Assembly: GCF_024105735.1 (NCBI RefSeq)
Contig: NZ_JAAAML010000002.1
Coordinates: 62,001-126,000, forward strand
DNA: 64,000 nucleotides
Direction of reading: 5' to 3'
Source: Parahoeflea alexandrii
GTDB lineage: Bacteria; Pseudomonadota; Alphaproteobacteria; Rhizobiales; Rhizobiaceae
Shown here: positions 30,035-45,827 of the stretch, in pieces
How the letters are laid out: each line of letters opens with the position of its first letter
Numbering within the stretch: the first letter of the stretch is position 1
Notes under the pieces: model-generated
The model's input: only the letters and a program-made list of their open reading frames with translations
Told to the model about the DNA's origin: nothing
Database searches by the model: none
Translations under genes and position numbers: made by a program

Positions 30035-31039
30035 TCAGACCCCGATAGCGCGGATGGCAGCCGCAAGCTCGGCATCGACCGGTATTCCGTTCTCGAGCAG
30101 ATCGGCGCGGATCTGCTGCCGCCGGCGCCCGGGCAGACGTGCACCTTGCGTGCCGGCAACCATGTCGGCCATCAGCGCCATGCGTTCGGCGCCACCGGGG
30201 CCGAACGCATCCGGGTCTATCGCGATGATCGCCTGCCCGGTTCCGGGCGGATCACCCTTGTCATCAAAGAACGAGCTCGCCTGCCAGGCATAATTCGCTC
30301 CGGTCAGCCCGGCGCAGAGAAGTTCCACCATCAGCGCCAGTGCCGTGCCCTTGGCGTCCCCGAGCGGAATCATTGTTCCCGCCATTGCGGCCTTGGCGTC
30401 GGTCGTGGGCCGACCGTCCGGATCGAGCGCCCAGCCTTCCGGGATGGGCTCGCCCTTCTGCGCTGCCGCCATGATCTTGCCGCGCGCCACCTTGGACAGG
30501 GAGATATCCACCACCACCGGCGCGCCATCGCTTAACGGAGCGGCAAAGGCAATCGGATCGGTGCCGAACAGCGGTCGGCGTCCACCCCAGGGCGCCATGG
30601 CCGCCGGCGCATTGGCAACCATCAGCGCCGCAACGCCGCGCTCGGCCAGCGCCTCGACGATCACGCCCGCAACACCGCAATGGTGCGAACGGCGGATTCC
30701 GGCGATGGCGATCCCCTGGCTCTTCGCAGCCTGTGGCAACCATTCGAGCGCAAGGTCCATCGCCGGATAGGCAAAACCGTTGGCTGCATCGATCGCAAGC
30801 GCCCCCGGCCTTGTTTCCGTCGCGGTCGGAACGGCAAAGCCGTCAACCTTGCCCGCCTTTGCCTGGGCAGAATAGGCCTCGACGCGCCGCAGGCCATGGC
30901 CGCTCTGTCCCGCCAGTTCGGCAGCCAGCAGCGCCCGCGCCACCGACAGAGCGTTTTCCGCAGACGTCCGGCTGCGCGTCAATGCTCCACTTATCAACTC
31001 GGCGACCGCCTCCGGCGTCATCGTCAGCGTATCGCTCAT
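30035..31039 (-). CDS. comC: probable (R)-3-sulfolactate dehydrogenase (Ldh_2 / malate-lactate dehydrogenase family)
   Basis: A 334 aa NAD(P)-dependent dehydrogenase of the Ldh_2 family (MDH type 2, YlbC, ComC). Family motifs: GQSGHGLRRVEAY, the catalytic-His region RRSHHCGVAG, and ANAPAAMAPWGGRRPLFGTDPIAFA. Alone the family is broad (malate, ureidoglycolate, sulfolactate), but the gene is the last of suyA-suyB-slcC-comC, where ComC interconverts sulfopyruvate and (R)-sulfolactate. Length matches characterised ComC as I recall it. Its start overlaps the slcC stop by 4 bp. Confidence 0.78.
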   Translation of the reverse strand: MSDTLTMTPEAVAELISGALTRSRTSAENALSVARALLAAELAGQSGHGLRRVEAYSAQAKAGKVDGFAVPTATETRPGALAIDAANGFAYPAMDLALEWLPQAAKSQGIAIAGIRRSHHCGVAGVIVEALAERGVAALMVANAPAAMAPWGGRRPLFGTDPIAFAAPLSDGAPVVVDISLSKVARGKIMAAAQKGEPIPEGWALDPDGRPTTDAKAAMAGTMIPLGDAKGTALALMVELLCAGLTGANYAWQASSFFDDKGDPPGTGQAIIAIDPDAFGPGGAERMALMADMVAGTQGARLPGRRRQQIRADLLENGIPVDAELAAAIRAIGV

Positions 31040-31968
31040 GCCTTGCTCCCCAGCGCTTCAAGCACCTTGTCGGCGATCAGATGACTGACCCGCTCGTTGG
31101 ATTCTCCCGTCACCCCGGCGATATGCGGGGTCAGGACCAGATTCTCCAATCCCTTGAACGTCGCCCCTGCTTCCGCGGTCAGCGGTTCGGTCTCGAAAAC
31201 GTCAAGCGCGGCACCGCCGAGACGGCCGGCCTTGAGCGCTTCCGCAAGCGCGGCCTCGTCAACAATCCCGCCGCGCGCCGCATTGATCAGGATCGCATCC
31301 GGCTTCATCCGCGACAACGCTTCGTCGTTGATGATGTTGCGCGTCGCATCGGTCAACGGGGTATGCAGCGAGACCACGTCCGAGAGTTCAAGCACCGCAT
31401 CAAGCGACACGTTGCGGGCAATCTGCCAACCCGGATGGTCCGCCATCAGATAGGGATCATAGGCAACGATCTGCATCCCCATCATATGCGCCCGCCAGGC
31501 CACTTCGCGGGCAATCGAGCCATAGCCGATAAGACCGATGGTCTTGCCTGCCAGTTCCCGGCCCATCATCGATTGCCTCGGCCATTCTCCCGCGACAACA
31601 TCGGCGGTACGCAAAAAAGCGCTGCGCAGCAGCATCAGCGCGGATGTGATCACATATTCCGCCACCGAGAGATCATTGGCCCCGGTTGCCGGAATGACCG
31701 AAATCGAGCGCGCCTTGCAGGCCACCACGTCGATATTGTCGAGCCCGACACCCAGTCGCCCCACCACACGCAGTTTGGGACCCATACTCAAAAGCGTCTC
31801 GCGCACCTGGGTACGATTGCGCACGATCAGCGCGCGCGCCGAGGTCAGGTGATCGTGCAATGCCGCCGGATCATCCACCAGTTTCGGATCATAAAGTGTA
31901 TCGTGCACACGAACGAGGCGGCCAACAGCCGCCTCGTCCATGAATTCGGTTATGACGATATCTGCCAT
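31036..31968 (-). CDS. slcC: probable (S)-sulfolactate dehydrogenase (D-2-hydroxyacid dehydrogenase family)
   Basis: A 310 aa NAD-dependent D-isomer-type dehydrogenase. Rossmann motif GLIGYGSIAREVA (about 146-158), catalytic-Arg segment INAARGGIVDEAAL, acidic DVFETEPL and the catalytic His in LTPHIAGVT. The family includes phosphoglycerate dehydrogenase; the short form without ACT domains and the suyAB-comC context point to SlcC, which oxidises (S)-sulfolactate to sulfopyruvate. Translation is probably coupled to comC. Starts 25 bp after suyB. Confidence 0.8.
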   Translation of the reverse strand: MADIVITEFMDEAAVGRLVRVHDTLYDPKLVDDPAALHDHLTSARALIVRNRTQVRETLLSMGPKLRVVGRLGVGLDNIDVVACKARSISVIPATGANDLSVAEYVITSALMLLRSAFLRTADVVAGEWPRQSMMGRELAGKTIGLIGYGSIAREVAWRAHMMGMQIVAYDPYLMADHPGWQIARNVSLDAVLELSDVVSLHTPLTDATRNIINDEALSRMKPDAILINAARGGIVDEAALAEALKAGRLGGAALDVFETEPLTAEAGATFKGLENLVLTPHIAGVTGESNERVSHLIADKVLEALGSKA

Positions 31969-31993
31969 TTCAACTCCACCTGTTTCCTCAGGT

Positions 31994-33175
31994 TTAAGCG
32001 GAACGGTAGAGCTTTGTCATGGAGAATTCGCGGTGACCGAGTGCCTCCGCCGCGGTGGCGCGACCGTTCGATGTGCGGATGATCATCTCGATCAGCGAAT
32101 CGCCGGCCTCGTCGATGGTCATCTCGCGGGTCAGCACGCCGGTCACATCGACATCGATATGCTCGCTCATGGTCCTGAGCGTGCGCGGATTGCCCGAGAT
32201 CTTGATCACCGGCACGATCGGGTTGCCGATCACGTTGCCCTGACCGGTCGGGAAGGTGTGGATCACCGCACCGCCTGCCGCCATCAGCGTCACGCATTCC
32301 GCAGCCGCCGAGGACGAATCCATGAAATAGAGCCCCTTGCCCGATGCCGGCTGCTCGGCCGGGTCGAGGATGTCGATGAATTTCGATGTCCGGCCGATCT
32401 TTTCCAGGTTGCCGAGCGCCTTCTCCTCGATGGTGGTCAGGCCACCCTCGATATTGCCCTTGGTCGGCTGGCTGTCCGACAAATCATCGGTCTGGTGGGC
32501 GAAGATGACGTCGTCCTGATAGGCCTTCCACATCTTGTACCAGCGCTCGCCAACCTCCTCGTTGATGGCGCGGGTCTTGCAGATGTGCTCGGCGCCGGTG
32601 ATCTCCGAGGTCTCCCCGAAGAAGCCGTAGATGCCCTCGGGCAGCAGCTTGTCATACATGTTGCCAACCGTCGGGCAGGAACTCAGGCCTGTCGTCGTGT
32701 CGCTCTCGCCGCACTTGGTCGAGACCCAGAGTTCCGAGATCGAGCACTCCTCGCGCTGCAGCTCGGAGGCAAAATGCACATATTCCTTGGCCACCTTCGA
32801 GGCTTCCATAATCGTCTTCAGGTCGCCATTCTGCTCGATCGACAGACCGGTCACCGGCTTGCCGGTGGCAGCGATCCCGTCGACGATCTTCTTGGTCCAG
32901 CCCGGCTCGATGCCGATCACGACCACCGCCGCCACGTTTGGGTTTGCCCCGGTGCCGATGATGGTGCGGAAATGCAGATCGAGATCCTCGCCGAACTGCA
33001 GCCGGCCATAGGCATGCGGAATCGCGAGTGTGCCCTTGATATTGTTGGCCACGGCCTCGCAGGCCGCATTGGAGATGTCGTCGACCGGCAGGATGAGGAC
33101 GTGGTTGCGCACGCCGACCCGGCCGTTCTCACGCCGGTAGCCTTGAAACGTCATGTTTGAGTATTTCGATGCCAT
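31994..33175 (-). CDS. suyB: (R)-sulfolactate sulfo-lyase large subunit SuyB
   Basis: A 393 aa UxaA/altronate-dehydratase-superfamily lyase. It begins [16 protein letters not shown], then [27 protein letters not shown], the Cys-bearing [12 protein letters not shown], and ends [21 protein letters not shown]. These match my recollection of SuyB closely in sequence and length. With SuyA it eliminates sulfite from (R)-3-sulfolactate, giving pyruvate. GGAG precedes the ATG at 33175 and suyA ends 11 bp upstream. A true altronate dehydratase is the alternative, less likely because no uronate genes are near and slcC-comC follow. Confidence 0.85.
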
Positions 33176-33186
33176 GATCAGGGCTC

Positions 33187-33474
33187 CTACCAGCGCTTGG
33201 TTTTCAGGTTGTTGGTGTGGACGTGAGCGCCCTTCTCGACATCGGCGACGAACTTTCCGATGTCCTCGCCGTACTTGATCGCCGTATCGCCCGACTTGAT
33301 GTCCTTGAGCGCGACCTTGTGGCCGATCGGCACATCGGCATTCGAGACCAGCTCGAAGCTGGAATTGTCATGCGTGACGACACACAGCATCTTGGTCCCG
33401 GCCTTCAGGCCCTCGACAACGACGACACCGACATTGTCCGCGTGGTCATGAACTAGCAAATGGGGGGTGGTCAC
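33187..33474 (-). CDS. suyA: (R)-sulfolactate sulfo-lyase small subunit SuyA
   Basis: A 95 aa SAF-domain protein, the separate small subunit corresponding to the N-terminal part of UxaA. Recognisable segments are FLVHD-like [39 protein letters not shown] and the C-terminal [12 protein letters not shown], all as in SuyA. I chose the GTG at 33474 because GGAGG stands seven bases before it and it gives the normal SuyA length; the longer reading would run into the operator. First gene of suyA-suyB-slcC-comC. Confidence 0.85.
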
Positions 33475-33525
33475 GTTTGTCCTCCAATGTGGATAAGGTG
33501 TATTCTGGTGGCATACGACATTCAA

Positions 33526-33539
33526 GTCTTATATAAGAC
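33526..33539. promoter_or_regulatory. GTCTTATATAAGAC operator, suyA/gntR intergenic (site 1)
   Basis: Perfect 14-bp palindrome, one of four identical copies in the window, in the divergent region between suyA and gntR. The flank on the gntR side, ATAAGAT, nearly matches ACAAGAT at sites 2 and 3. A TTGACT hexamer (33562-33567, minus strand) 22 bp away could be the suyA -35, placing the operator near the transcription start. Most likely bound by the GntR protein beside it. Confidence 0.8.
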
Positions 33540-33579
33540 ATAAGATATGGTATGAATGAAAAGTCAACCGGGGCAGAGC

Positions 33580-34341
33580 ATGGAAAACAAAAAACAGGTG
33601 CCGGAAGCAGCAGAATCCGGAAGCGGAGAGCCAATCGGCTTCAAGCCGCTCTATGCCCAGGTTCGTGAACGACTGATGCGCCGTCTGGTCGATGGCGCCT
33701 GGCTGCCGGGCATGCTACTGCCCAGCGAAATGGAGCTGGCGCGCCAGCTCAATGTCAGCCAGGGCACTGTGCGCAAGGCGCTCGATTCGATGACGGCCGA
33801 CAATCTTCTGCTGCGCCGCCAGGGCCGCGGCACCTACGTCGCCGAGCCTGAGGAAAGCCGGATCATGTTCCAGTTCTTCCGGCTTTCGCCGGACGAGGGC
33901 AGCCCGAACTTTCCGGATTCGAAAGTGCTCAGCACCGGATCCGCCAGCCCGACCAAAACCGAAAAAGAAGCGCTCGGCCTCGGTGATGCAGATGAGGTCA
34001 TCCGCATCGAACGCATTCGCTCACTGTCCGGTCAGCCGATCCTGATCGAAACCATCACACTGCCGTCAAACCGGTTCCCCGACTTCGATCACCTGACAAT
34101 CATCCCGAACAATGTCTACAGGCTCTATTCCGAACGCTGGGGCATCACCATCGGCAGCGCCGAGGAGCGCCTCAAGGCCATCGCCGCCAGCGCCCGTGAC
34201 GCCGCAAAGCTGGGCTGCGAAAATGGAGAGCCCTTGCTCCTGATCAGCCGCCTGGCCCGCGATCTGGAAAACCGTCCGGTCGAATTGCGCTGGTCGCGGT
34301 GCATCACCCGCGAAATCCATTACGCGGTCAATTTGCGCTGA
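33580..34341 (+). CDS. GntR/HutC-family transcriptional regulator (probable regulator of the sulfosugar regulon)
   Basis: About 253 aa: an N-terminal winged-helix domain (PLYAQVRERLMRRL, PSEMELARQLNVSQGTVRKAL, RRQGRGTYV) and a C-terminal UTRA ligand domain (IRIERIRSLSGQPILIET, VYRLYSERWGITIG). HutC-type regulators are usually repressors released by a pathway sugar phosphate or acid. Divergent from suyA with a shared operator, so probably autoregulated. I favour the ATG at 33580; an ATG at 33556 would add eight residues. The effector is unknown; sulfolactate or a sulfosugar phosphate is an inference from context. Confidence 0.85.
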   Translation: MENKKQVPEAAESGSGEPIGFKPLYAQVRERLMRRLVDGAWLPGMLLPSEMELARQLNVSQGTVRKALDSMTADNLLLRRQGRGTYVAEPEESRIMFQFFRLSPDEGSPNFPDSKVLSTGSASPTKTEKEALGLGDADEVIRIERIRSLSGQPILIETITLPSNRFPDFDHLTIIPNNVYRLYSERWGITIGSAEERLKAIAASARDAAKLGCENGEPLLLISRLARDLENRPVELRWSRCITREIHYAVNLR

Positions 34342-34344
34342 ATT

Positions 34345-35430
34345 TCAAAGGCTGATCGCCGTGCCGGTCTTGGCCGATTTTTCCGCCGCCAAGCCGATCC
34401 GCACCGCCTTCAGTCCATCCTCGAGAGAGACCTCGGGCATGCCACCGTTTCGGATCATCTCCAGGAATTTCTGATGCTGGAAGAAGGTCGATCCATGGTG
34501 ATCGCCAACCGCCAGGATCGCGGCATCGACATCGACGATCTCGCGTTGTTCGCGCTTGGTCGCGCGCGGCGACAGCACGAATTCCGAATGCCGTTCCTTG
34601 CCGTCGGGCGCAAACCGGGATGGTCCCGGCACGAACGCCTCGGCCTTGGCGATGTCGCCTGTCACCGCGATCGCTTCCTGCCAGTTCGAACCTTCCGCGA
34701 ACATGCAGAGATCCAGCATGGCGCGCAGGCCATTGTCGAAATCAACCACCACGAAGGCGTTGTCGAGGATGTCCGGGCGTACGCCATCATATTCCTCGTC
34801 GCGGAAATTGACGTCCCCACTGCCTGACGCATAGACGCGGACCGGTTCGGCCTTGGCGATGAGCCGCATCAGATCGAAGAAATGGCAGCATTTTTCCACC
34901 AGCGTGCCGCCCGTCTTGGCCTCGAAGCGGTTCCAGTCCCCCACTTTTTTCAGGAACGGAAACCGGTGTTCGCGGATCGATATCATCCGCGGCACGCCGG
35001 TTTCGCCCGCGTGCACCGCCTCGATCAGCCGCGCCACCGGCGGGATGTAGCGATACTCCATCGCCACCCAGACCTGCGCCGTCCGCCCCCCGGCAAGCTC
35101 CAGGATGTCCTCGCAATCCGCCAGCGTCGTGCACAAGGGCTTTTCCACCAGGATTGGAAGATCCGCGGGCAGCACATCTTTGAGAATCCGGTGATGCAGA
35201 TGATTCGGAGCCGCGATCACCAGCGCGTCGCAGAGTCCCGAGCGCAGGAGGTCGGCATGATCGGTGAATTCGGCGCAATCCTTGCCCGCCATATGCGCGG
35301 CACTTGAGCGCATGCCCTCATCCGGATCGCTCACAGCGGTCACCTGCGCGCCCTCCAGCAATCCGATCGTGCGGATATGTTCCTGCCCCATCATGCCGGA
35401 GCCGATGATGCCGTATCTGATGTCTGCCAT
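34345..35430 (-). CDS. Gfo/Idh/MocA family oxidoreductase; candidate NAD-dependent sulfoquinovosidase
   Basis: A 361 aa protein with an N-terminal NAD-binding Rossmann domain (GIIGSGMMGQEHI), the family EKPL motif in LVEKPLCT, and a C-terminal domain containing FEAKTGGTLVEKCCHFFDLM. The family holds sugar dehydrogenases and NAD-dependent glycoside hydrolases. Because it lies with sulfosugar genes it might be a GH188-like sulfoquinovosidase releasing sulfoquinovose from its glycosides; I cannot confirm diagnostic residues, so a dehydrogenase remains equally possible. It starts 27 bp after the isomerase-like gene on the same strand and ends 3 bp from gntR (convergent). Confidence 0.8.
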   Translation of the reverse strand: MADIRYGIIGSGMMGQEHIRTIGLLEGAQVTAVSDPDEGMRSSAAHMAGKDCAEFTDHADLLRSGLCDALVIAAPNHLHHRILKDVLPADLPILVEKPLCTTLADCEDILELAGGRTAQVWVAMEYRYIPPVARLIEAVHAGETGVPRMISIREHRFPFLKKVGDWNRFEAKTGGTLVEKCCHFFDLMRLIAKAEPVRVYASGSGDVNFRDEEYDGVRPDILDNAFVVVDFDNGLRAMLDLCMFAEGSNWQEAIAVTGDIAKAEAFVPGPSRFAPDGKERHSEFVLSPRATKREQREIVDVDAAILAVGDHHGSTFFQHQKFLEMIRNGGMPEVSLEDGLKAVRIGLAAEKSAKTGTAISL

Positions 35431-35457
35431 GGCAAAGCCCTGATGTTCGGAGAAACT

Positions 35458-36846
35458 CTAGAGGTGGATGACCGGCAGGCCGGCGGCAGCGGCAAAGCTT
35501 TCCAGCGCCCCCACATGGTCGCCATAGGCAAGCGCCATGTGGTGCTCGAGCCCGCTGTCGATGACCCGCGTGAGCACCTCCTCAGCCGGCCGATCGAACC
35601 TGACCACGCCCGAGGTGCCGGTGAAAGCCATGTCGCGCTTGAGCATCTCGCCCCGGGCGATGATCAGACTCTGCTGCCCGCGCGCCTGGCTCAACCGGAC
35701 AAAGGTGACAGGCCCCGGCTTGAGCGGAAATTCGAACAGGAGCGGCATCTTGCGGTTGGTGTGGATCGTTGCGCGGGCGATCGCCTCCGGTTCCGCCATC
35801 GACATCGGCGCCTGGCCGCAATGCCAGACCACGCCGGTGTCATCACTCGAATCCAGATCGACCAGGTCGACCAGAAATACCGGCTGGTCGCTCGCCGCCT
35901 GAAGCAGCAATTGCGTGGCCGCGCCATAGACATCCGCCTCGCAGGCGCACGGCACCCGGCCCTCGCCCATCATCGAGGCGGGACCGCAGACAGCACCACC
36001 ATACTCGGTGAATGTTTCCGGCCAGCAGCGGATGGCAAACGCGTCGAAACCGCCCTCGGCCTTCATTCCGTCGAGCGCCAGTTTCAGCCGCAGCGACCGG
36101 TCGAGCTGCGTCTGGTCAACCTGATCAAGGCCGGCTAGATTTGCCGATAGCTCGGTCTTGAGCCCGGTGGCCGCGGCTTCCGGCGCCGCCCGAGCCCGGT
36201 CAAACAGGTCCGCAAGCTCGAACCCGGTCACGGTCATTCCGATCAGGTCTGCGAGACGGGCGCTGTCATAGGCACAGGTGTCAAACCCGTCCGGATGCGC
36301 GCCGATCCGGGCAATGGTCCTGCCGCGCAGACCGTCCAGCAAGGCGCCGCCATACTCTGGGTCTGCATCAGTTATCTGCGAAATCAAAGGGCAAACCATC
36401 GGCTCTTCTGTCAGCAATGCCTCGATACCTGAAGTATGGGGAGCCGCGTACCGCCACGAAAACAGCCGGTTACGCAGCCCCAGGGCATGCGAGGCAAGAT
36501 TGAGCCCGCAGAACGCGTTGAGCCGCAGCCGCCCGCCCAGACGCGGCTCGGGCACCGCCCAGATCGCCAACGGTTGCGGGAACGTGTCCGCGATGCGGCA
36601 TGTCAGCGCGGCATCGGTGAAGGTGACCTGCAGGATGAGGATGCGGTCCGGCTTCTCGGCCTTGATGTCCGTCATCGCCGCTTGCGTGGCATCGGCGTCC
36701 ATCAGCAGTTTTTCCGGCCCGATCAGCCGGTGGCCGCTTGCCCTGAGATCGGCCATCATGCCCGCGAGCATCTCCTCGGCGAATGCCACGTCGAAGGTCG
36801 GCCGTCCGAGCGGCAGAACGCCTATGGTGAGAGTTTCACCGGACAT
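35458..36846 (-). CDS. L-fucose/L-arabinose-isomerase-like protein; candidate sulfosugar isomerase
   Basis: A 462 aa protein resembling the FucI/AraA-fold isomerases. C-terminal family signatures are AIRCWPETFTEYGG, CACEADVYGAATQLLL, VDLVDLDSSDDTGVVWHCGQAP and a late GLEHHMALAYGDH. These enzymes interconvert aldoses and ketoses with a divalent metal. In this locus it could convert sulfoquinovose to 6-deoxy-6-sulfofructose, the substrate of the kinase at 38520-39425. The ATG at 36846 has AAGGGGG seven bases upstream; an ATG at 36852 is too close to it. No copy of the shared palindrome lies in front. Confidence 0.72.
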   Translation of the reverse strand: MSGETLTIGVLPLGRPTFDVAFAEEMLAGMMADLRASGHRLIGPEKLLMDADATQAAMTDIKAEKPDRILILQVTFTDAALTCRIADTFPQPLAIWAVPEPRLGGRLRLNAFCGLNLASHALGLRNRLFSWRYAAPHTSGIEALLTEEPMVCPLISQITDADPEYGGALLDGLRGRTIARIGAHPDGFDTCAYDSARLADLIGMTVTGFELADLFDRARAAPEAAATGLKTELSANLAGLDQVDQTQLDRSLRLKLALDGMKAEGGFDAFAIRCWPETFTEYGGAVCGPASMMGEGRVPCACEADVYGAATQLLLQAASDQPVFLVDLVDLDSSDDTGVVWHCGQAPMSMAEPEAIARATIHTNRKMPLLFEFPLKPGPVTFVRLSQARGQQSLIIARGEMLKRDMAFTGTSGVVRFDRPAEEVLTRVIDSGLEHHMALAYGDHVGALESFAAAAGLPVIHL

Positions 36847-36892
36847 CGACATTCCCCCTTACATCATCGGGTAAAAACACTAGATTGCAGAC

Positions 36893-38529: not shown

Positions 38530-39425
38530 AGTGGCGTCTCTTTCATGAAGGATTCGGTTTCCGCGCGTGTCGGATAGCCAGCGCGGCCATTGGTTCGGGT
38601 GCATTTGATCGCTGCAACGGCGCTGGCAAATCGGATCGCTTCGGGCGGTGACGCCCCTTCTCCGAGCAGCAAGGCGAAGGCGCCATGCCAGACGTCGCCC
38701 GCGCCCAGTGTGTCAAGTGGTGTAATGGCGAAGGCCGGCTCGGATCCGGATGCCGCACCTTGCCGCCAGAACACGCCCCTGGCGCCATCGGTCACGCAGA
38801 CGAAAGATCCCGTATCCGCGGCAACATCCGCCAGCGCCTTGTCGAGGTCGTCATGCTCCGCCCAGTCGCGCAGTCCCTGCGCCGAAAAGGCGACATGGCT
38901 TGCCTGGTGCAGCGCCGCCTCCGCTTCGCGGATCGGCGCTTCTCCATCAAGCACGCCGGGCAGACCACGCTCACGCGCGGTTTGCATGAGCACTTCGGCT
39001 CCATCGGGCCAGCGTGTATCGGCCAGCGCCGCATCGAAAGTCTGCGGCAGCGCCGCCTTCAGCCACCCGGCATCCATCGGCAAGTCATGATCCCGGAAAT
39101 TGACAATCTGGCGTTCGCCGGCCTGGTCGATGAACACCGACGAGAACGAGGATCGCCGTCTCTCGAAGCGGCGCACCATTGCGCAGTCGACGCCATCGGC
39201 CTCAAGTCCGGCGACAATCATGTCGGCCACCTGGTCCGAGCCGAGCCGGCTTGCCAGCATCGCATGCCCGCCAAGCCGGGCAATCGCCGCGGCGGCATTG
39301 GCGGCACCGCCCCCGCCGGTAATCTCGGCACCGTTCGCGCGGTACTTCTCCGCCAGCCGCGGCATCTCGTCGAGAAAGAAGACGAAATCCACCACTGCGA
39401 CCCCGGTGGTCACGATCTTTGTCAT
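38520..39425 (-). CDS. PfkB-family kinase resembling 6-deoxy-6-sulfofructose kinase YihV
   Basis: A 301 aa ribokinase-fold sugar kinase. It aligns with E. coli YihV (from memory) along its length: EKYRANGAEITGGGGAANAA, GERQIVNF, ALADTRWPDGA, GVLDGE, DTLGAGDVWHGAFAL and RFASAVAAIKCTRTNGRAG. Three residues I recall as contacting the sulfonate in YihV, Lys27, Asn109 and Arg138, fall at the same numbers here. The catalytic Asp is in GAGD. It should phosphorylate sulfofructose at C1. Operator site 2 lies 69 bp upstream. The resemblance goes well beyond generic PfkB motifs. Confidence 0.85.
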   Translation of the reverse strand: MTKIVTTGVAVVDFVFFLDEMPRLAEKYRANGAEITGGGGAANAAAAIARLGGHAMLASRLGSDQVADMIVAGLEADGVDCAMVRRFERRRSSFSSVFIDQAGERQIVNFRDHDLPMDAGWLKAALPQTFDAALADTRWPDGAEVLMQTARERGLPGVLDGEAPIREAEAALHQASHVAFSAQGLRDWAEHDDLDKALADVAADTGSFVCVTDGARGVFWRQGAASGSEPAFAITPLDTLGAGDVWHGAFALLLGEGASPPEAIRFASAVAAIKCTRTNGRAGYPTRAETESFMKETPLCS

Positions 39426-39493
39426 TGCAAGCTTCTATCCCAGGCACTCTTCCGGCAGAGGCAAATCGTCCCGCCCGGAATCGACCATATCAA

Positions 39494-39507
39494 GTCTTAT
39501 ATAAGAC
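39494..39507. promoter_or_regulatory. GTCTTATATAAGAC operator before the kinase-aldolase genes (site 2)
   Basis: Exact copy of the palindrome, followed on the plus strand by ACAAGAT as at site 3. It lies in the gap between the cytochrome c peroxidase-like gene and the kinase, 69 bp before the kinase start, and thus controls the kinase-aldolase transcript. Confidence 0.8.
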
Positions 39508-39560: not shown

Positions 39561-40940
39561 TCAATCCACCGGCAATCCGCTCGGGACGGCAGGCGGCCGT
39601 CCCAGACGTCCCTTCGCGCTCCCGGTCAAGGCGTTGAGAAACGAGACCAGTTGCGAGACCTCCGCATCGGAAAGCATGACCGGCGCGATATCGACCCGCG
39701 CCTTCAGCCGCGCCCGCTCGCGGCTGTCGTCGAGTGCAATGAAATCGACCCTTTCGAACCTCGCATCCGCCGGCAGCAAGACCATATCCGGCGTCCAGGC
39801 CTCCAGTGACGCAATCGGATCGAGATGGTGCCGCACGATCCCCTCCAGCGTCGCATAGGCGCCATTGTGGCCCCATGGCCCGGTCAGCGCCACGTTGCGC
39901 AGCATCGGCGTGCGAAACCGGTAGGCGTCTTCGAGCCTGTCCGATTCGGCCATGCGCCCGACGTCACGCACATAGGGATCGAACCGCCGGGTCCGCCCTG
40001 GACCGAAATGCGGCAGCGCCAGGGCATGAAACCCCTGATCCGATAGGAGCGGCCCGGAATGGCAGCTGGCGCATCCCGCCTTGCCGAAGAACAGCTCCAT
40101 GCCCGCCCGCGCCGGGGGCGACATCGCAGACCCGTCGCCGGCAAGAGAACGGTCAAACGCGCTGTCCGTGCTGCGCCATTCGGAATTCATGAAATCGCCG
40201 AGCGCATTGGCGATGTGCACGATGCTCAGGTCACCCGCCGCGGCAATCGAGGCGTCCGCGCCACGAAACAGCTCGAGATAGGCGGGAATCCCGCGCACAC
40301 GCTCGACCAGCAGCGGCCAGACATAATCGATCCGGTCATAGGCGGCCCCGGCTATCTTGTTCTCCTCCGGATTGCCGGCCATCTCCGTTTCCGATGTGAG
40401 CGGAAACAGCGCCTGCGCCGCCAGGATGCCCTTCAGCCCGAGTGGCAGATATTCCTCGGCCGGGGAGTTGAAGCCGTTGCCGAAAATATCGTCGACACTC
40501 AGCCGCCCGTCATGGAACAGCACGCTGATGTCGCGGGCGCCGAGATTGAACAGCGCCGGCGCATTGCGCGGCACCCGTTTCTCGATCAGGTCGGCTCCTT
40601 GTCCGGTTGTCCGCTTGGCGCCGATGCCCGTGCCGCCCTCGCCGACCCCCAGCGCCAGGCCATCCCCGGAGGCAAGATCATGGTGGTGGCAGGTGCCGCA
40701 GGAGATATTGCCGTTCCCCGACAAGATCGGGTCGTAGAACAGGAGACGCCCGATCTCCGCGAGCTTGGGATCGAAATCGTGAAAATCCGCGTCCGTCAGC
40801 GGCTTTGGCAGGACCTGCGCCTGGGCCGCCGGGGCAGACAGGCAGACGCCTGCAAGTAGGCCAAGCGTCGCAACGAGCGAGCGCAGTCCGGCGATTGCTT
40901 GGTTTCTCACCTTCCAGCCTCCCGTCCGCCTTGTCCCCAT
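39561..40940 (-). CDS. di-haem cytochrome c peroxidase / MauG family protein
   Basis: A 459 aa periplasmic di-haem protein. The N-terminus is a signal peptide ending near AAQAQ. Two haem-attachment motifs, CGTCH and CASCH, are present. Family segments include GRLLFYDPILSGNGNISC, GKRTTGQGADL, FHDGRLS, FRTPMLRNVALTGPWGHNGAY and the terminal DAEVSQLVSFLNALTG. It reduces peroxide or, MauG-like, oxidises a protein or small substrate. ATG 40940 has GGAGGAGGAG upstream; a GTG at 40910 is also well placed. Operator site 2 lies beyond its 3' end, so it is not obviously part of the regulon. Confidence 0.87.
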   Translation of the reverse strand: MGTRRTGGWKVRNQAIAGLRSLVATLGLLAGVCLSAPAAQAQVLPKPLTDADFHDFDPKLAEIGRLLFYDPILSGNGNISCGTCHHHDLASGDGLALGVGEGGTGIGAKRTTGQGADLIEKRVPRNAPALFNLGARDISVLFHDGRLSVDDIFGNGFNSPAEEYLPLGLKGILAAQALFPLTSETEMAGNPEENKIAGAAYDRIDYVWPLLVERVRGIPAYLELFRGADASIAAAGDLSIVHIANALGDFMNSEWRSTDSAFDRSLAGDGSAMSPPARAGMELFFGKAGCASCHSGPLLSDQGFHALALPHFGPGRTRRFDPYVRDVGRMAESDRLEDAYRFRTPMLRNVALTGPWGHNGAYATLEGIVRHHLDPIASLEAWTPDMVLLPADARFERVDFIALDDSRERARLKARVDIAPVMLSDAEVSQLVSFLNALTGSAKGRLGRPPAVPSGLPVD

Positions 40941-41039
40941 GCGGGTGCTCCTCCTCCGGGCCATCGGGCCACCGCCTTGCCAGCCCGGGCGCACCGCCCT
41001 TATTCTCGGCCACCTGACTTCGCAGCGAAAGAATGACAA

Positions 41040-41537: not shown

Positions 41538-41558
41538 ACGCCCATTCCAAAAGACAAA

Positions 41559-41593: not shown

Positions 41594-41608
41594 GAAACCC
41601 GTGCAGCC

Positions 41609-42688
41609 TTACTGCATGTCCTTCATCGCACCGCCATCGATCATCTCGGAGGCCTTCGCGGCTTCGGCGACCAGCAGGTCATAGAAGGTGGCTCCACCCT
41701 CGACATTGGCCTTGAACCACTCGAACACCGGGGCTGCGGCTTCCTTGAACTGGGCCTTTTCTTCCATGGTAGGCACGTAGACCGCACCGCCCACTTCGGC
41801 AAACGCCTTGTAGGCGTCGATGGACTTGCGCTTCGGCGATGCGAATGTCGCCTGCTGAAGGGCCGCAAAACCGTCCACCACGACGCGGCGCAGACCTTCG
41901 TCCAGCCCAATGAACCGGTCATTGTTCATGTACCACAGCGCGCCCATGTAGGAATGGCCGTCAAGCGTGAGGTATTTCAGCCCGGCATCGGGGAACTTCA
42001 TGCCCATGATGTCGGTGATGCCGTTCTGGGTGCCTTCGACCACACCGGTCTGGAACGAGGTGAACAGTTCCGGCCAAGGAATCGGGGTCGGCGACGCGCC
42101 CATGGCGCGAACCAGTTCCTGCGGCAGGTCTGCCACCACGGTGCGGATCTTCAACCCATCCATGTCGGCCGGCGAACGGATTTCGCGCTTGGTGTTGGCA
42201 AAGTTGCGCCATCCGCCCGTGTTGCCGATCGTCATCAGCCGGATCATGCCGCCCGAATCGGCCAGCATCTGTTCGCGCAGCGCCCGGACGAAGGTACCTT
42301 CGGTCAGCACTGCCTCGGCAATGCGGTCATCGCGCAGCAGGTAAGGCAGATCCAGTACCTGCACATAGGGGAAGATGCCCGACGCGCCGCCTGAGGTGGA
42401 GATGTAGATGTCGATCGACCCGTCGGCGATACCCTGGAGGCATTCTGCGCCGGTCGAGCACAGCTGCGTGCCGATGAACAGTTCGACCTCGATCGCGCCA
42501 TTCGAGGCCTTCTCGACATAGTCCTTGAACACGATCAGACCGTCATAGTCCTCGTCGTTCTCGTTCGAGTTGGCCGTTGCACGCAGCTTGATATCGGCCG
42601 CCTGCGCCGCCGTGATCATGCCGCCGGCCAGGACCGAAAGTCCCAGCGCCGCCGCGGTCAGTGTTTTCATTGCCTGTTTCAAGATCAT
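41609..42688 (-). CDS. TRAP transporter substrate-binding protein DctP (system 2, palindrome-controlled)
   Basis: A 359 aa periplasmic binding protein with a signal peptide (hydrophobic 8-25, cleavage near AQAA). DctP-family landmarks are the IKLRATANSNEND start, FKDYVEKASNGAIEVELF, DMDGLKIRTVVADL with the ligand Arg, and FTSFQTGVVEGTQNG. It has its own operator (site 3) 38 bp upstream and GGGAGG before the ATG, so it is transcribed separately from, or in addition to, dctQ-dctM. Proposed ligand: the sulfosugar, its glycoside or sulfolactate, judged from shared regulation only. Confidence 0.88.
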   Translation of the reverse strand: MILKQAMKTLTAAALGLSVLAGGMITAAQAADIKLRATANSNENDEDYDGLIVFKDYVEKASNGAIEVELFIGTQLCSTGAECLQGIADGSIDIYISTSGGASGIFPYVQVLDLPYLLRDDRIAEAVLTEGTFVRALREQMLADSGGMIRLMTIGNTGGWRNFANTKREIRSPADMDGLKIRTVVADLPQELVRAMGASPTPIPWPELFTSFQTGVVEGTQNGITDIMGMKFPDAGLKYLTLDGHSYMGALWYMNNDRFIGLDEGLRRVVVDGFAALQQATFASPKRKSIDAYKAFAEVGGAVYVPTMEEKAQFKEAAAPVFEWFKANVEGGATFYDLLVAEAAKASEMIDGGAMKDMQ

Positions 42689-42725
42689 TGAAGAGCCTCC
42701 CGTTGATAATTGTTATGCATCACTA

Positions 42726-42739
42726 GTCTTATATAAGAC
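42726..42739. promoter_or_regulatory. GTCTTATATAAGAC operator before dctP (site 3)
   Basis: Exact palindrome followed on the plus strand by ACAAGAT. On the minus strand a consensus -35 TTGACA (42765-42770) lies 25 bp upstream of it, so the operator would cover the start region of the dctP transcript. Confidence 0.82.
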
Positions 42740-42815
42740 ACAAGATCGACAACATCCCTGTCCTTGTCAACCGGGCACAAGCTGTCGGAAACATCTTCCG
42801 CAAGCTTCCCGTTTC

Positions 42816-44105
42816 TCATCGCGCGAATCCGAACAGCTGCGGCACGAACAGCGAGATCTGCGGCACGAAGGTGATCAGGAAGATCACGATCACCTCCACC
42901 AGCAGAAACGGCAGGATAGCCTTTGCGATGGTTTCCACCCGCTCGCCCGACACGCTTGAGGTGACGAACAGAACCAGCCCCATCGGCGGCGTCGCCAGCC
43001 CGACGGTCAGATTGACGCTCATGATGATGGCGAAGTGCACCGGGTGCACGCCGAGATCGGTGAAGATCGGCCCCAGGATCGGACCCAGGATAATGATCGC
43101 CGGCCCGGCATCGAGGAACATGCCCACAATGAACAACAGGACATTGATCAGGAACAGCAGGATATAGGGATTGTCCGACAGGCCGAGAATGAAATTGGCC
43201 AGGATTTCCGGCGTGTGCGACAGGCTGACCACGGTCTTGAACGCCATTGCGGCACCGACAAGCAAAAGCACCACCGACGTCGTCATCGCAGCCTTTGTCA
43301 GCACTTTTGGCAGGTCTGCCCAGCCCATGGTCTTGAGAATGAACAGCGACACGATGAAGGCATAGACTGCCGCCACCGCAGACGCCTCCGTCGGCGTGAA
43401 CACGCCGCCCAGGATCCCACCGAGGATGATCACCGGGGTCAGCAGCGGAAAAAATGCCTTCAGGCTTGCCTCCCCGCGCTCCGGCCAGCTCGCCTTGCGC
43501 GCCGCAACCGGAAAGTCGTGCCGCTTGGCAAGAAAGGCGACGACCATCATCAGGCCGATGCCGACCAGCACCCCGGGAACGATGCCGGCGAGAAACAGTG
43601 CCGCCACCGATTCTCCCATCACATAGGCATAGATGATCATGATACCCGACGGTGGAATGATAGGACCGATCACCGAGGAGGCCGCGGTCACCGCCGCCGC
43701 GAATTTCCGGGTGTAGCCGTTTTTCTCCATTGCCGGGATCAGCATCGATCCCAAGGCCGAAACATCCGCAACGGCGGAGCCGGACAGGCCTGCAAACAGC
43801 ATCGAGGAGAGGATGTTCACATGCGCAAGACCGCCCTTGAGATGACCGATCATCGCCTGGCTGAACTCGACGATGCGCATGGTGATGCCGCCGCGGTTCA
43901 TCAGCTCGCCCGCCAGCATGAAGAACGGGATCGCCATCAGCGGAAACGAATCCATGCCCGTGTAGACGTTGCGGTAAAGCAGCGCGATGTCGCGTTCCTG
44001 GCCGTTGAGCCAGAGCAGAAACCCGGGGGCTGCCAACATGCCGAAGAACACCGGCAGGCCGATCATCAGGAAAATCAGGAACAGCGGCAGGAAGAAGAAC
44101 AGCAT
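42816..44105 (-). CDS. TRAP transporter large permease DctM (system 2)
   Basis: A 429 aa permease with about 12 helices and DctM signatures: FAGLSGSAVADVSALGSMLIPAM, GPIIPPSGIMIIYAY, and VGLATPPMGLVLFVTSSV. It starts 3 bp after dctQ and is followed 127 bp later by dctP with its own operator. The order Q-M-P is reversed from system 1 (P-Q-M), so the two transporters were acquired separately. Confidence 0.92.
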   Translation of the reverse strand: MLFFFLPLFLIFLMIGLPVFFGMLAAPGFLLWLNGQERDIALLYRNVYTGMDSFPLMAIPFFMLAGELMNRGGITMRIVEFSQAMIGHLKGGLAHVNILSSMLFAGLSGSAVADVSALGSMLIPAMEKNGYTRKFAAAVTAASSVIGPIIPPSGIMIIYAYVMGESVAALFLAGIVPGVLVGIGLMMVVAFLAKRHDFPVAARKASWPERGEASLKAFFPLLTPVIILGGILGGVFTPTEASAVAAVYAFIVSLFILKTMGWADLPKVLTKAAMTTSVVLLLVGAAMAFKTVVSLSHTPEILANFILGLSDNPYILLFLINVLLFIVGMFLDAGPAIIILGPILGPIFTDLGVHPVHFAIIMSVNLTVGLATPPMGLVLFVTSSVSGERVETIAKAILPFLLVEVIVIFLITFVPQISLFVPQLFGFAR

Positions 44106-44108
44106 GGC

Positions 44109-44696
44109 CTACTCCACCGCCACGATCACCCGGTCATGATCCTCGGGCAACTCGGCCTCCGGATCGATGAGGTGAGCAAGCGCCTTGAGACACAACTCGA
44201 CATTGACAAGGGTCATCATCAACAGGCCGACAGGCAGCGACATGTACATCCATGCCAGCTTGATGCGAACAAGCCCGAGGCCGAGAAACTCAAGCGGCAG
44301 CTTCAGCGAGCTGGAATTGAACAGCCAGCCGGAGTTGACATGGTTGAGCCCGAGCCGGAATCCGTAGACAAGCACGACCAGCGACACTAGCAGCAGCATC
44401 AGGCCGAGCAAGGCGCCAAGCCGCGCGGGCAACAGGTCCTTGACCATCTCAATGGAAACAAACCCGCCCCAGCGATAGGCCGTCGGTGCAATCAGTGCCG
44501 TCATCCAAAGCATCAGAAAACGTGCGCCCTCATCGGGCCATGCCAATGCGTTGCCGAGGATGTAGCGGAAAACCACCTGCAGGATGATGATCAGCACCAT
44601 CAGCCCCATAGCCACCCAGGCAATGTTGCGACCAGCCCTTAGAAGCAGGGTGTTCAACCCCGCCAGCGGTTTGAGCACCGCCAGAATCACCGTCAT
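44109..44696 (-). CDS. TRAP transporter small membrane subunit DctQ (system 2)
   Basis: A 195 aa four-helix subunit: LQVVFRYILGNALAWPDEGARFLMLWMTALIAPTAYRWGGFVSIEMV is the classical DctQ region. I chose the ATG at 44696 because GGGGAGGA stands eight bases before it; a start at 44720 adds eight residues with no ribosome site. Operator site 4 lies 44 bp upstream, so dctQ-dctM belong to the same regulon as suyAB. Confidence 0.88.
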   Translation of the reverse strand: MTVILAVLKPLAGLNTLLLRAGRNIAWVAMGLMVLIIILQVVFRYILGNALAWPDEGARFLMLWMTALIAPTAYRWGGFVSIEMVKDLLPARLGALLGLMLLLVSLVVLVYGFRLGLNHVNSGWLFNSSSLKLPLEFLGLGLVRIKLAWMYMSLPVGLLMMTLVNVELCLKALAHLIDPEAELPEDHDRVIVAVE

Positions 44697-44740
44697 GGTC
44701 TTGGTCCTCCCCAGGGCCACCCGCCAAACCGCGTCCGCAA

Positions 44741-44754
44741 GTCTTATATAAGAC
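44741..44754. promoter_or_regulatory. GTCTTATATAAGAC operator before dctQ-dctM (site 4)
   Basis: Exact palindrome; the flank differs from the other three (CTTGCC in place of AyAAGA). A TTGACA on the minus strand (44785-44790) lies 30 bp upstream of it. It sits between the galM stop and dctQ. Confidence 0.8.
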
Positions 44755-44816
44755 CTTGCCTATGGGCTTCTATTTCTCGACGCCTGTCAAGACCGGAAAT
44801 TCTCAACCGCTGAGTG

Positions 44817-45827
44817 TCAGCTCCGAATGAACACGTGCTCGGTCCGCTGCACCAGCGTCTCGCCGGGCCTGAGCACCGCCCCCGCAAAACCGGCATGGTT
44901 GGGGCTGTCAGGCCAGCTCTGGGTTTCCAGACAGAAGCCGGCGCAGGCTCCATAGAGCTTGCCGTTCAGCCCCGGGACCGTCGGCTTGATCTTGAAGCCG
45001 CTGTAGAATTGGAGGCCAGGCTCGGTCGAACGCAGTTCCATGGCCAGCCCCGACCGCATGGACCGCGCCAGCGCGATGGTCCGGACCGCCTGCCGGTCCG
45101 TCGACAGGCAGAAATTGTGATCATACGGCACCTGGCCGTCGGGCCCTTCGCACCGGATCGGACGCAGCTCCCGGAAGTCGAACTCCGTGCCCTCGACGGC
45201 CCTGATCTCTCCGGTCGGGATCTGCTCCGCATCGACCGGCAGATACTCCTCCGCGGCAATCATCAGCTCGTGGTCAAGAATGTCATCGGCATCATCAAGG
45301 GTGAAGTAGCTGTGATGGGCGATGTTGATCAGCGTCGGCCTGTCGGTGACGCTGGTATAGGTGATCGCCATGCAGCCGCCGGCCTGAAGCTCGTAGCGCG
45401 CCTCGATCTTCGCTGTCCCGGGATAGCCCGACTGGCCGTCCGGATCGACGATCGAGAACACCGCGTGGTCTGTTCCGTGGCTTTCCAGCGTCCACACCCG
45501 CTTGCCGATGCCCGCGCTGCCGCCATGCAGATGGTTGATCCCGCGTTCGTTGCATTCGAGCTGGTAGGCCACTCCATCGAGCACGAAGCGACCACCGGCA
45601 ATCCTGTTGGCGTGCCGGCCCGGTGTCTGGCCGAAATAGGGCGAATGCGCGGGATAGCTTTCGAAATCAGGAAACCCGAGTGTTAGCGGTCCGACATGGC
45701 CGTCGAGCCTGAGATCCTGCAGGGTGGCGCCCCAGGTCATGATCTTCGCCGTCAGCCCACCGCCCGAGATCGTCACCCGGTGAACGGCCTCCCCGTCTGC
45801 AGTCTGCCCAAACGCTTCGATGGTCAT
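44817..45827 (-). CDS. aldose 1-epimerase (mutarotase)
   Basis: A 336 aa GalM-fold enzyme. Markers are the substrate-binding GRHANRIAGGRF, HLHGG, the catalytic-acid His in NIAHHSYF, and the C-terminal catalytic-base Glu in CLETQSWPD. It interconverts alpha and beta sugar anomers. Because it adjoins the palindrome-controlled TRAP genes it may serve as a sulfoquinovose mutarotase, as YihR does in E. coli, but no shared palindrome precedes it and the active site is not visibly specialised. It reads toward dctQ on the same strand. Confidence 0.87.
   Translation of the reverse strand: MTIEAFGQTADGEAVHRVTISGGGLTAKIMTWGATLQDLRLDGHVGPLTLGFPDFESYPAHSPYFGQTPGRHANRIAGGRFVLDGVAYQLECNERGINHLHGGSAGIGKRVWTLESHGTDHAVFSIVDPDGQSGYPGTAKIEARYELQAGGCMAITYTSVTDRPTLINIAHHSYFTLDDADDILDHELMIAAEEYLPVDAEQIPTGEIRAVEGTEFDFRELRPIRCEGPDGQVPYDHNFCLSTDRQAVRTIALARSMRSGLAMELRSTEPGLQFYSGFKIKPTVPGLNGKLYGACAGFCLETQSWPDSPNHAGFAGAVLRPGETLVQRTEHVFIRS

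Follow-up and report, generated by a model that had tools for sequence, protein, structure and literature searches.

Sulfoquinovose (SQ) is the sulfur sugar of plants and algae. In the accessible text of the respective reports, its production is put at approximately 10 billion tons a year (PMC10755693), and full use of its sulfur is described as best known from two-member communities (PMC9594981). The principle of joining sulfosugar breakdown to the sulfo-lyase SuyAB has precedents, and the locus described here, from a marine Hoeflea-type bacterium, varies a known theme. According to the available part of their description, the actinobacterial GH188 "Y160" clusters (Backlund and Higgins 2024, PMC11465081) resemble it in harboring a GH188 protein, a sulfofructose (SF) kinase, an SFP aldolase, a fucose isomerase, both sulfolactate sulfo-lyase subunits, a PGDH-like gene and a regulator, but possess an ABC transporter, an in-cluster sulfolactaldehyde (SLA) dehydrogenase and a Tyr in the sulfonate loop, where the Hoeflea locus has a TRAP transporter, a Leu, ComC and no SLA dehydrogenase. 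As far as the accessible portion of its report extends, the sulfofucolytic-SuyAB tandem of Paracoccus wurundjeri (PMC12421959) likewise belongs to an alphaproteobacterium, with complete degradation proposed via SlcC, ComC and SuyAB and an SLA dehydrogenase that was not pinpointed; it concerns sulfofucose, an ED route and ABC uptake and is supported by growth, proteomics and assays, whereas the Hoeflea locus, read from sequence, has an EMP set with a GH188 protein.

Other systems share parts of this arrangement, again as described in the accessible text. Extended sulfo-TAL clusters of Thermotogae and Chloroflexi (PMC9594981) couple sulfoglycolysis to SuyAB, but employ transaldolase cleavage and belong to other phyla. 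Hybrid sulfo-EMP pathways, Proteobacteria included, mix sulfo-EMP and EMP2 enzymes; the Vibrio hybrid combines sulfo-EMP enzymes with the aldolase SqiA and has DHPS as its end product, and no SuyAB is described for hybrid clusters in the available portions (PMC10599462, PMC13372026, PMC12890257). The sulfo-EMP pathway of Arthrobacter AK01 (PMC10755693) similarly pairs a GH188 enzyme, SqgA, with an SF kinase and an aldolase, but releases sulfolactate to the medium and has an in-cluster SLA dehydrogenase, while the DHPS route of Ruegeria pomeroyi (PMC11131964) offers a parallel in GabD-2, a GabD-type SLA dehydrogenase whose tag lies distant from hpsN, and in its HpsN/O/P-type genes, differing in that it starts from DHPS. 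The initial annotation, which knew of no alphaproteobacterial locus with this exact combination, needs the correction that the principle has been published, for extended sulfoglycolysis with SuyAB, for Paracoccus, an alphaproteobacterium, and for the actinobacterial GH188 clusters. What appears to be new here, judging from sequence comparison, is that one operator word joins the sugar and desulfonation modules and recurs in a sulfofucose-type cluster of Sinorhizobium. Literature searches, weak in that subscription papers lay mostly outside them, returned no paper on Hoeflea with SQ or sulfolactate, none on GntR control of sulfolactate genes by title or abstract start, for suyR or a suyAB operator, at the level of listings, papers almost entirely on other subjects, and for SF kinase residues nothing related.

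The cluster occupies positions 30035 to 45827 of the window (the whole analyzed stretch of 64,000 nucleotides) in a genome of 4.9 Mb, and its genes lie on the minus strand unless marked otherwise. All of the genes previously named in it (kinase, aldolase, fucose-isomerase-like protein, Gfo/Idh protein, epimerase, TRAP importer and suyA-suyB-slcC-comC) were recovered. The Gfo/Idh protein (34345 to 35430) is an SqgA-like relative of the GH188 NAD-dependent sulfoquinovosidases and is predicted to hydrolyze SQ glycosides; its similarity to SqgA is full-length, spanning residues 3 to 361 (phmmer E values of 1.5e-119 for 8qc2 and 4.7e-118 for 8qc3). The accessible text on the ArSqgA structure names K107, Y136, E163, R166, L170, K172, E189, H193 and H321 (PMC10755693). 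By hand count on the alignment, eight of these nine are identical, with K97, Y126, R156, L160, K162, E179, H183 and H311 matching the named ligands and the sulfonate triad conserved; the ninth, at position 163 by hand count, is Glu in neither protein, both of which carry a Glu one position on. A GH188 relative with this triad points to SQ.

The neighboring isomerase candidate (35458 to 36852) possesses an arabinose/fucose isomerase fold, and its sole hit in NCBIfam is to SftI, a model for SQ isomerases (NF048012; E value of 2.8e-79), at 266.9 bits, far under the 700-bit cut-off. Genomic context and fold make it a candidate for SftI/SqvD-like SQ isomerase function, and it stands in place of the YihS-type isomerase (PF07221) of the canonical sulfo-EMP pathway. 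It was found in 12 of the 18 genomes of the genus, and a search of plasmids with it as query gave no match above 39% identity. The proposed likeness of the kinase (38520 to 39425), a PfkB protein and SF kinase candidate, to E. coli YihV was borne out, its top solved match being the E. coli SF kinase (7ag6; E value of 9.2e-59), with which K27, N109 and R138 align; we take these to be the residues with a sulfonate role in SF kinase. Since a relative (60.6%) is located on a plasmid of Nitratireductor thuwali in a non-SQ context, the kinase by itself is not diagnostic.

The class I aldolase of the DeoC/LacD family (37495 to 38529), a candidate sulfofructose-1-phosphate aldolase, has its most probable start at 38529, where its gene overlaps the stop of the kinase gene; the 369-amino-acid open reading frame is over-extended. 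It had been described as YihT/LacD-like; it scores far higher with 8tnf and LacD (E values of 3e-91 and 7e-39) than with YihT (3e-17), and it passes the NCBIfam subfamily "tagatose 1,6-diphosphate aldolase" with 336.7 bits (cut-off, 184). An aldolase nearer to LacD and 8tnf than to YihT, coupled with an SftI/SqvD-like rather than a YihS isomerase, denotes a hybrid pathway and not that of E. coli. An aldose 1-epimerase gene (44817 to 45827), possibly encoding a sulfosugar mutarotase, matches the galactose-1-epimerase subfamily NF008277 with 247.3 bits (cut-off, 240) and the galM equivalog with 252.7 bits, below the required 397.65; because it lies upstream of operator 4, its membership of the regulon is not plain. 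The TRAP importer is specified by genes for the binding protein DctP (41609 to 42688), the large permease DctM (42816 to 44105) and the small permease DctQ (44109 to 44720).

On the desulfonation side, suyA (33187 to 33477; SAF domain E value of 3.5e-4) encodes the sulfo-lyase small subunit, and its start, revised from 33525, is most likely the GTG at 33477 that follows GGAGG. Adjacent to it, suyB (31994 to 33175; GD_AH_C/GD_AH_second) encodes the large subunit of (R)-sulfolactate sulfo-lyase, so that a SAF-domain SuyA and a GD_AH SuyB are neighbors, as expected of SuyAB, and resemble the SuyAB of reported hosts: SuyA is 74% identical to that of Sinorhizobium mexicanum, and SuyB is 67% identical to a Cupriavidus pinatubonensis plasmid protein and 83 to 87% identical to those of Paracoccus and Sinorhizobium. 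In the accessible portions of two reports, SuyAB is recorded for these same taxa (PMC12421959, PMC9594981). The single other match of SuyB in the genome is at 34%; its top solved match is a galactarate dehydratase (E value of 6e-40), which is also the sole NCBIfam match of SuyAB, far under its cut-off. The product of slcC (31036 to 31968; 2-Hacid_dh families), a candidate (S)-sulfolactate dehydrogenase, is 60 to 67% identical to those of suyAB-adjoining genes of Paracoccus aestuarii and S. mexicanum. That of comC (30035 to 31039; Pfam Ldh_2, E value of 1.1e-94), a candidate (R)-sulfolactate dehydrogenase, scores 181.9 bits against the sulfolactate dehydrogenase model NF040650 (cut-off, 500) and matches the L-sulfolactate dehydrogenase 2x06 with an E value of 5.8e-36, other Ldh_2 enzymes scoring above 2x06.

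The two halves of the cluster are joined by an operator. The four identical sites noted earlier were verified as exact 15-nucleotide copies of AGTCTTATATAAGAC, between suyA and gntR (operator 1, 33525 to 33539) and upstream of the kinase gene (operator 2, 39493 to 39507), dctP (operator 3, 42725 to 42739) and dctQM (operator 4, 44740 to 44754). Their core, TCTTATATAAGA, has four exact sites in the whole genome, all within the locus (backward control, 0), and the 12-base core with up to two mismatches was matched four times in the window where 0.16 matches were expected, a count reached in 0 of 100 shuffles. The divergent gntR (33556 to 34341, plus strand; start possibly at 33580) encodes a GntR/HutC-type regulator with a UTRA domain. 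Across 80 loci sampled by the presence of the isomerase gene, the operator occurs in 31 of 33 with this GntR and in 2 of 47 without it (Fisher P = 1.8e-17, on related and thus not independent genomes), with L067 and L068, whose GntR matches are at 36% and 35%, scored as lacking the regulator although both carry the operator. This pairing spans alpha- and gammaproteobacteria, and the regulator is in turn associated with suy genes (Fisher P = 2.7e-13). The proposal that a single regulon performs uptake, sulfo-EMP-type cleavage and desulfonation is accordingly well supported by sequence, through a genome-exclusive operator at four promoters that is kept in two classes, a GH188 relative, and isomerase, kinase and aldolase genes beside suyAB; it falls short at the conversion of SLA to sulfolactate, for which the locus holds no gene.

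As in extended sulfoglycolysis, the locus combines sulfoglycolytic genes with suyAB. In the survey, either suyA or suyB is present in 31 of the 80 loci, with L070, a low-coverage suyA match, scored as lacking suy genes, and the suggested co-occurrence across genomes was seen for suyB, kinase and isomerase together in 28 of 80. GH31 enzymes of gammaproteobacterial loci, in a cluster covering 11 loci, were considered as stand-in sulfoquinovosidases where GH188 is absent, a reading that was not retained: in L088, the one member searched, the GH31 protein was YicI-like, with no sulfoquinovosidase at an E value of 1e-40.

Within the window, none of the 25 aldehyde dehydrogenase (PF00171) genes detected in the genome is located, nor does the cluster hold the SLA reductase or dehydrogenase of the canonical sulfo-EMP pathway. 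A 3-hydroxyisobutyrate dehydrogenase-type gene (20156 to 21139), presumably of the YihU superfamily, lies approximately 9 kb away and is operator-less. Among the 31 suy-bearing loci, 24 show no linked SLA dehydrogenase within the extracted DNA, L078 having one just outside. A GabD/SlaB-type gene immediately follows comC in L050, L053, L066 and L078, which assigns the step absent here to this pathway; the linked enzyme of L112, one of the seven counted, is 32 to 35% identical to the others. Candidates for SLA oxidation in trans are two, a GabD paralogue at C7:928667, which is 65% identical to the in-operon dehydrogenase of Nitratireductor, and gabD at C9:58791 (58%). The former was rejected as a genus-wide SLA dehydrogenase, as it has an ABC/SDR/aminotransferase neighborhood and a copy above 66% in just 2 of 18 genus genomes; the dehydrogenase tree, with several long branches, left it unplaced. 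That tree joins the dehydrogenases located within the L090 and L092 loci to the gabT-linked GabD of this genome (98/99), so the locus-borne dehydrogenases fall into more than one group (three changes).

We consider it probable that the locus specifies an extended hybrid sulfo-EMP pathway for SQ and SQ glycosides that feeds SuyAB, and infer the following course. The TRAP importer would take up the substrate, from which the GH188 enzyme would free SQ, with mutarotation next. The SftI/SqvD-like isomerase would convert SQ to SF, the YihV-type kinase would phosphorylate it, and the LacD-like aldolase would cleave the product to DHAP and (S)-SLA. A gene product from outside the locus, most probably an aldehyde dehydrogenase of the GabD type, would form (S)-sulfolactate, which SlcC and ComC would convert via sulfopyruvate to (R)-sulfolactate, the predicted substrate from which SuyAB would release sulfite and pyruvate. 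The GntR/UTRA regulator, a presumed repressor, would keep these modules off from its four operators until an intermediate appears. Of all this, the sequence itself establishes which families the genes belong to and the association of the operator with GntR.

The sugar could conceivably be sulfofucose, or both sugars, with isomerization to sulfotagatose, phosphorylation to sulfotagatose-1-phosphate and aldolytic release of DHAP and SLA ahead of SuyAB. The closeness of the aldolase to the LacD/tagatose-bisphosphate aldolase group is in keeping with this, and the same operator and GntR stand beside a sulfofucose-ED-type gene set in S. mexicanum, which means that the identity of the sugar cannot be read from the regulator. 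An EMP route was also weighed by Stewart et al. for a suyAB-adjoining PF00294/PF01791 pair in Paracoccus, but that pair was uninduced by sulfofucose according to the accessible text (PMC12421959). The SQ-binding residues of the GH188 enzyme and the SQ isomerase model as sole match of the isomerase make this reading unlikely. Chance sharing of a regulator by two separate neighboring operons, one for an ordinary hexose derivative and the other for sulfolactate, is less credible still: many isomerase loci lack suy genes, L058 has the kinase-aldolase-isomerase trio alone, and Paracoccus aestuarii harbors a cluster for sulfolactate only, but the GH188 sulfonate triad, the operator common to both halves and the GntR-suy association all argue against it, as does the retention of GH188 in 34 of the 49 suy-less loci.

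A further alternative concerns SLA itself. Instead of GabD, a DHPS (hps) module encoded in trans might reduce it to DHPS or subject it to HpsN-type oxidation, the SQ and DHPS routes sharing C3 steps and a single SuyAB. The genome does encode such a module at C7:961-968 kb, with TRAP, HpsN, SDR and Zn-ADH genes (HpsN against the (R)-DHPS dehydrogenase 8wwe, E value of 1.1e-210). Of the 16 locus-bearing Rhizobiales genomes, none of the 11 with HpsN of at least 67%, but all 5 without it, encode a dehydrogenase that reaches 80% identity to the in-operon one of Nitratireductor (Fisher P = 2.3e-4, inflated by the close kinship of the Hoeflea genomes). As a general rule this exclusion was rejected, with P = 0.13 over all 31 genomes (a set that covers every one of the 31 suy-bearing loci but L112, with L037 added) and P = 0.36 at a 70% cut, where L043 has both. 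HpsN is, moreover, described for R-DHPS in the available text (PMC11131964), whereas the aldolase is expected to yield (S)-SLA, and slcC and comC would become needless; we thus judge this route improbable and retain oxidation by a GabD-type enzyme.

Sharing of the operator with the Sinorhizobium sulfofucose-type cluster suggests that the regulator may sense a C3 intermediate common to sulfosugar modules. We tentatively extend this to a recurrent cassette, comprising the GntR/UTRA regulator, the TCTTATATAAGA operator and suyAB-slcC-comC, that could link varied sulfosugar modules (SQ EMP in Hoeflea and gammaproteobacteria, sulfofucose ED in Sinorhizobium) to one desulfonation core, with sulfolactate or SLA as the shared signal and the Hoeflea SLA step shared in trans with DHPS catabolism; if true, two large pools of marine sulfonate would converge on a single SuyAB. 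Having almost the entire route behind one switch in an alphaproteobacterial genus would shorten the two-member chain, and GTCTTATATAAGAC near a GntR gene and suyAB offers a genome search word for candidate complete degraders. The locus also sharpens the question raised by P. wurundjeri as to which enzyme oxidizes SLA where no dedicated gene is linked.

The initial annotation was silent on the absence of an aldehyde dehydrogenase and on two further genes. Between dctP and the kinase gene lies one for a MauG/di-heme peroxidase-like protein (39561 to 40964; CCP_MauG E value of 4.8e-28; two CxxCH motifs; start approximate, with a Met at 40964), which, searched with a query devoid of its N terminus, was found in 35 of the 80 loci, in every case with dctP. 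An antisense gene inside the cluster (36893 to 37480, plus strand) encodes a histidine-phosphatase-like protein (His_Phos_1) and is retained in Hoeflea and some relatives. Scans for sigma-70 promoters (2 sites against 4.2 expected) and terminator-like sites (12 against 11.2) were uninformative; a stem of 12 pairs is located 3′ of dctP.

The Gfo/Idh gene, which the initial annotation had left open, is, judged by sequence, the most telling gene of the locus at window positions 30035 to 45827 (the Hoeflea locus). Its product matches the solved GH188 sulfoquinovosidases 8qc2 (E 1.5e-119) and 8qc3 (E 4.7e-118), as well as 8zn9 (E 7.7e-116), an entry named merely oxidoreductase, with the following match at E 3.4e-18. 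By alignment count, ArSqgA residues K107, Y136, R166, L170, K172, E189, H193, and H321, whose roles are described in the available text of PMC10755693, are all conserved, the sulfonate triad included. The closest solved relative of the kinase is the sulfofructose kinase of E. coli (E 9.2e-59), while the aldolase is of class I, lies nearer to LacD and 8tnf (a DUF2090 entry) than to YihT, and scores over the cut-off of the NCBIfam tagatose-1,6-diphosphate aldolase subfamily model. Against the SftI sulfoquinovose isomerase model, the isomerase reaches E 2.8e-79, its 266.9 bits lying under the equivalog cut-off of 700; Foldseek aligns its predicted structure (mean pLDDT 92.1) with L-arabinose isomerases (E 9.5e-21) and L-fucose isomerases (E 5.2e-15), at TM-scores of about 0.55 to 0.58. 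A plasmid protein of Cupriavidus pinatubonensis shares 67% identity with SuyB, and proteins of Paracoccus and Sinorhizobium share 83 to 87%, the second-best match in its own genome being 34%. Compared with canonical sulfo-EMP clusters, the Hoeflea locus carries neither YihS nor a linked sulfolactaldehyde (SLA) enzyme and thus falls outside that class; on present evidence, the locus would be functionally akin to canonical sulfo-EMP, and its isomerase to SftI.

The gene set initially listed for the locus was borne out by the ORF list and family searches. Read along the minus strand with falling coordinates, the order is epimerase, operator (44740), dctQ, dctM, operator (42725), dctP, a MauG-like di-haem gene, operator (39493), PfkB kinase, LacD-like aldolase, fucose-isomerase-like gene, and Gfo/Idh gene, followed by gntR (plus strand), operator (33525), and suyA, suyB, slcC, and comC. 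The operator word, a putative GntR target, is GTCTTATATAAGAC, and AGTCTTATATAAGAC is common to all four copies. With up to two mismatches, TCTTATATAAGA occurs four times in the window against 0.16 expected; its four exact sites in the 4,909,397-base genome all lie within the locus, and its backward control gave no site genome-wide. Because two of the four operators precede TRAP genes, one the kinase, and one lies between suyA and gntR, the genes for uptake, sugar cleavage, and desulfonation carry a common sign. The single regulon initially proposed is upheld to this extent, with the epimerase placed upstream of the operator before dctQ. The locus is read, by sequence, as a coherent regulon, whose role is most likely complete sulfoquinovose (SQ) use.

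Further genes lie in or beside the locus. A second TRAP transporter (26804 to 29991, plus strand), convergent with comC and without an operator, occupies the spot held by a dehydrogenase gene in Nitratireductor loci. An antisense histidine-phosphatase-like gene (36893 to 37480, plus strand) between the aldolase and isomerase genes is kept in Hoeflea and some relatives. The MauG/di-haem peroxidase-like gene (39561 to 40964, minus strand), between dctP and the kinase gene, occurs in 35 of 80 related loci, all 35 of which encode a TRAP binding protein; no copy was found in five of the eight loci from Hoeflea (L034 to L041), and we know of no role for such a protein in sulfosugar use.

Among the 80 isomerase-bearing loci examined (the best 80 of 96 relatives), the nearest named relatives of the isomerase are those of Hoeflea (L034 to L041; 76 to 89% identity), where gene order is nearly invariant; within the genus, 12 of 18 genomes have the gene. 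In Hoeflea alexandrii (L034), the proteins of the locus that were found share 88 to 97% identity with those of the window, and no MauG-like gene was found. The suggested search for co-occurrence with suy genes found suyB, kinase, and isomerase genes joined in 28 of these best 80 loci, suyA or suyB occurring in just 31, as against 61 for the kinase, 68 for the aldolase, and 51 for GH188. The suy and kinase genes of gammaproteobacterial loci point in opposite directions, with gntR and the operator in between. The operator accompanies the GntR protein in 31 of 33 loci and occurs in 2 of the 47 that lack it (those two having a 35 to 36% GntR), although these counts come from related genomes and the trials are hence not independent. 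Sixty-eight copies were observed in related loci against 0.09 expected from base composition, and the word is conserved even where GntR identity is just 38 to 46% (loci L080 to L110).

The operator also extends to a different sugar module. Sinorhizobium mexicanum ITTG R7, listed among strains with a sulfofucolytic cluster in the available text of PMC12421959, has a plasmid that bears suyAB-slcC-comC, a gene for a GntR of this type (58%), and the exact operator twice. The first copy separates suyA from gntR; the second is flanked by an ABC binding protein gene on one side and a PF03328 aldolase gene on the other, with SDR and PF13378/PF02746 genes nearby. The aldolase, SDR, and PF13378/PF02746 genes represent the families of three out of four enzymes in the sulfofucolytic ED route, the fourth being a lactonase. 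The edge of this stretch holds a dehydrogenase with 81% identity to the Nitratireductor in-operon enzyme. The sulfolactate cluster of Paracoccus aestuarii encodes a 38% GntR and holds no exact operator. If one operator word does serve both EMP and ED modules, the simplest inducer would be an intermediate common to both, namely SLA or sulfolactate.

Sulfo-EMP cleavage yields SLA, and SlcC, ComC, and SuyAB start from sulfolactate. No PF00171 gene lies in the window, and 25 are present in the genome. A GabD/SlaB-type dehydrogenase gene directly follows comC in L050 and L053 (both Nitratireductor), L066, and L078, and an aldehyde dehydrogenase gene was found within the fetched stretches of 7 of 31 suy loci, that of L078 lying just beyond its stretch. 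The closest relatives of the Nitratireductor enzyme in the P. alexandrii genome are at C7:928667 (65%) and the gabT-linked gabD at C9:58791 (58%). Because the demonstrated SLA dehydrogenase of Ruegeria pomeroyi, GabD-2 (SPO3328), has a locus tag distant from that of hpsN (SPO0594; PMC11131964, available text), it is plausible by analogy that SLA would be oxidized here by an enzyme supplied in trans.

The same genome holds an hps-type DHPS cluster (C7:957000-973000) of TRAP, HpsN, SDR, and Zn-ADH genes, its HpsN matching 8wwe at E 1.1e-210. Among 31 genomes, HpsN of at least 67% occurs in 12 and a dehydrogenase at least 80% identical to the Nitratireductor enzyme in 5, with none having both (p 2.3e-4 in 16 Rhizobiales, 0.13 across all 31); with a cut of 70%, the L043 genome has both, and mutual exclusion is regarded as a lead, not a result. 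A further histidinol-dehydrogenase-family gene (L131:7720-9042), of three in the genome, lies beside fused TRAP permease, SDR, and LeuC-like genes. Elsewhere in the genome are one Mo-co_dimer (sulfite dehydrogenase-type) gene and eight TauE-family genes. A 3-hydroxyisobutyrate-dehydrogenase-family gene (window 20156 to 21139, plus strand), of the superfamily of the SLA reductase YihU, adjoins dxr outside the regulon.

As far as the available texts go, several published systems lie close to this one. A tandem of sulfofucose breakdown and SuyAB is described in Paracoccus (PMC12421959), sulfo-TAL genes are likewise clustered with SuyAB (PMC9594981), and actinobacterial clusters combine GH188 with an SF kinase, an SFP aldolase, a fucose isomerase, and the sulfo-lyase (PMC11465081). 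Hybrid sulfo-EMP pathways are described in Proteobacteria (PMC10599462 and PMC13372026), and an Ensifer strain is predicted to join sulfo-ED to DHPS degradation (PMC10599462). Compared with these, the features particular to the Hoeflea locus are TRAP uptake, the GntR/operator regulon, and the lack of a linked dehydrogenase. In the literature text available, "sulfoquinovose" and "TRAP transporter" were found together only in a mouse-gut taurine study.

Sixteen alphaproteobacterial loci (L044, L045, L047, L051, L054, L055, L059, L060, L071 to L073, L079, L081 to L083, and L086) hold isomerase, aldolase, GH188, and TRAP genes, several also the kinase, together with a slcC-like gene; neither suyAB nor comC was seen in them. 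In Rhizobiales bacterium 65-79, listed with a sulfofucolytic cluster in the available text of PMC12421959, the kinase-aldolase-isomerase trio (L058:7785-11130) lies near pyruvate dehydrogenase genes, with no suy or GH188 gene seen at the locus. A GH31 enzyme is common to 11 loci (L088, L090 to L093, L095, L097 to L100, and L109), the single member searched (L088:4282-6348) being YicI-like rather than like known sulfoquinovosidases. Plasmid pZZM402 of Zymomonas mobilis (L135) groups isomerase (39%), GH188-like (49%), epimerase, class II aldolase, MFS, and SSADH-like genes, which may possibly, from their sequences, form an SQ cluster.
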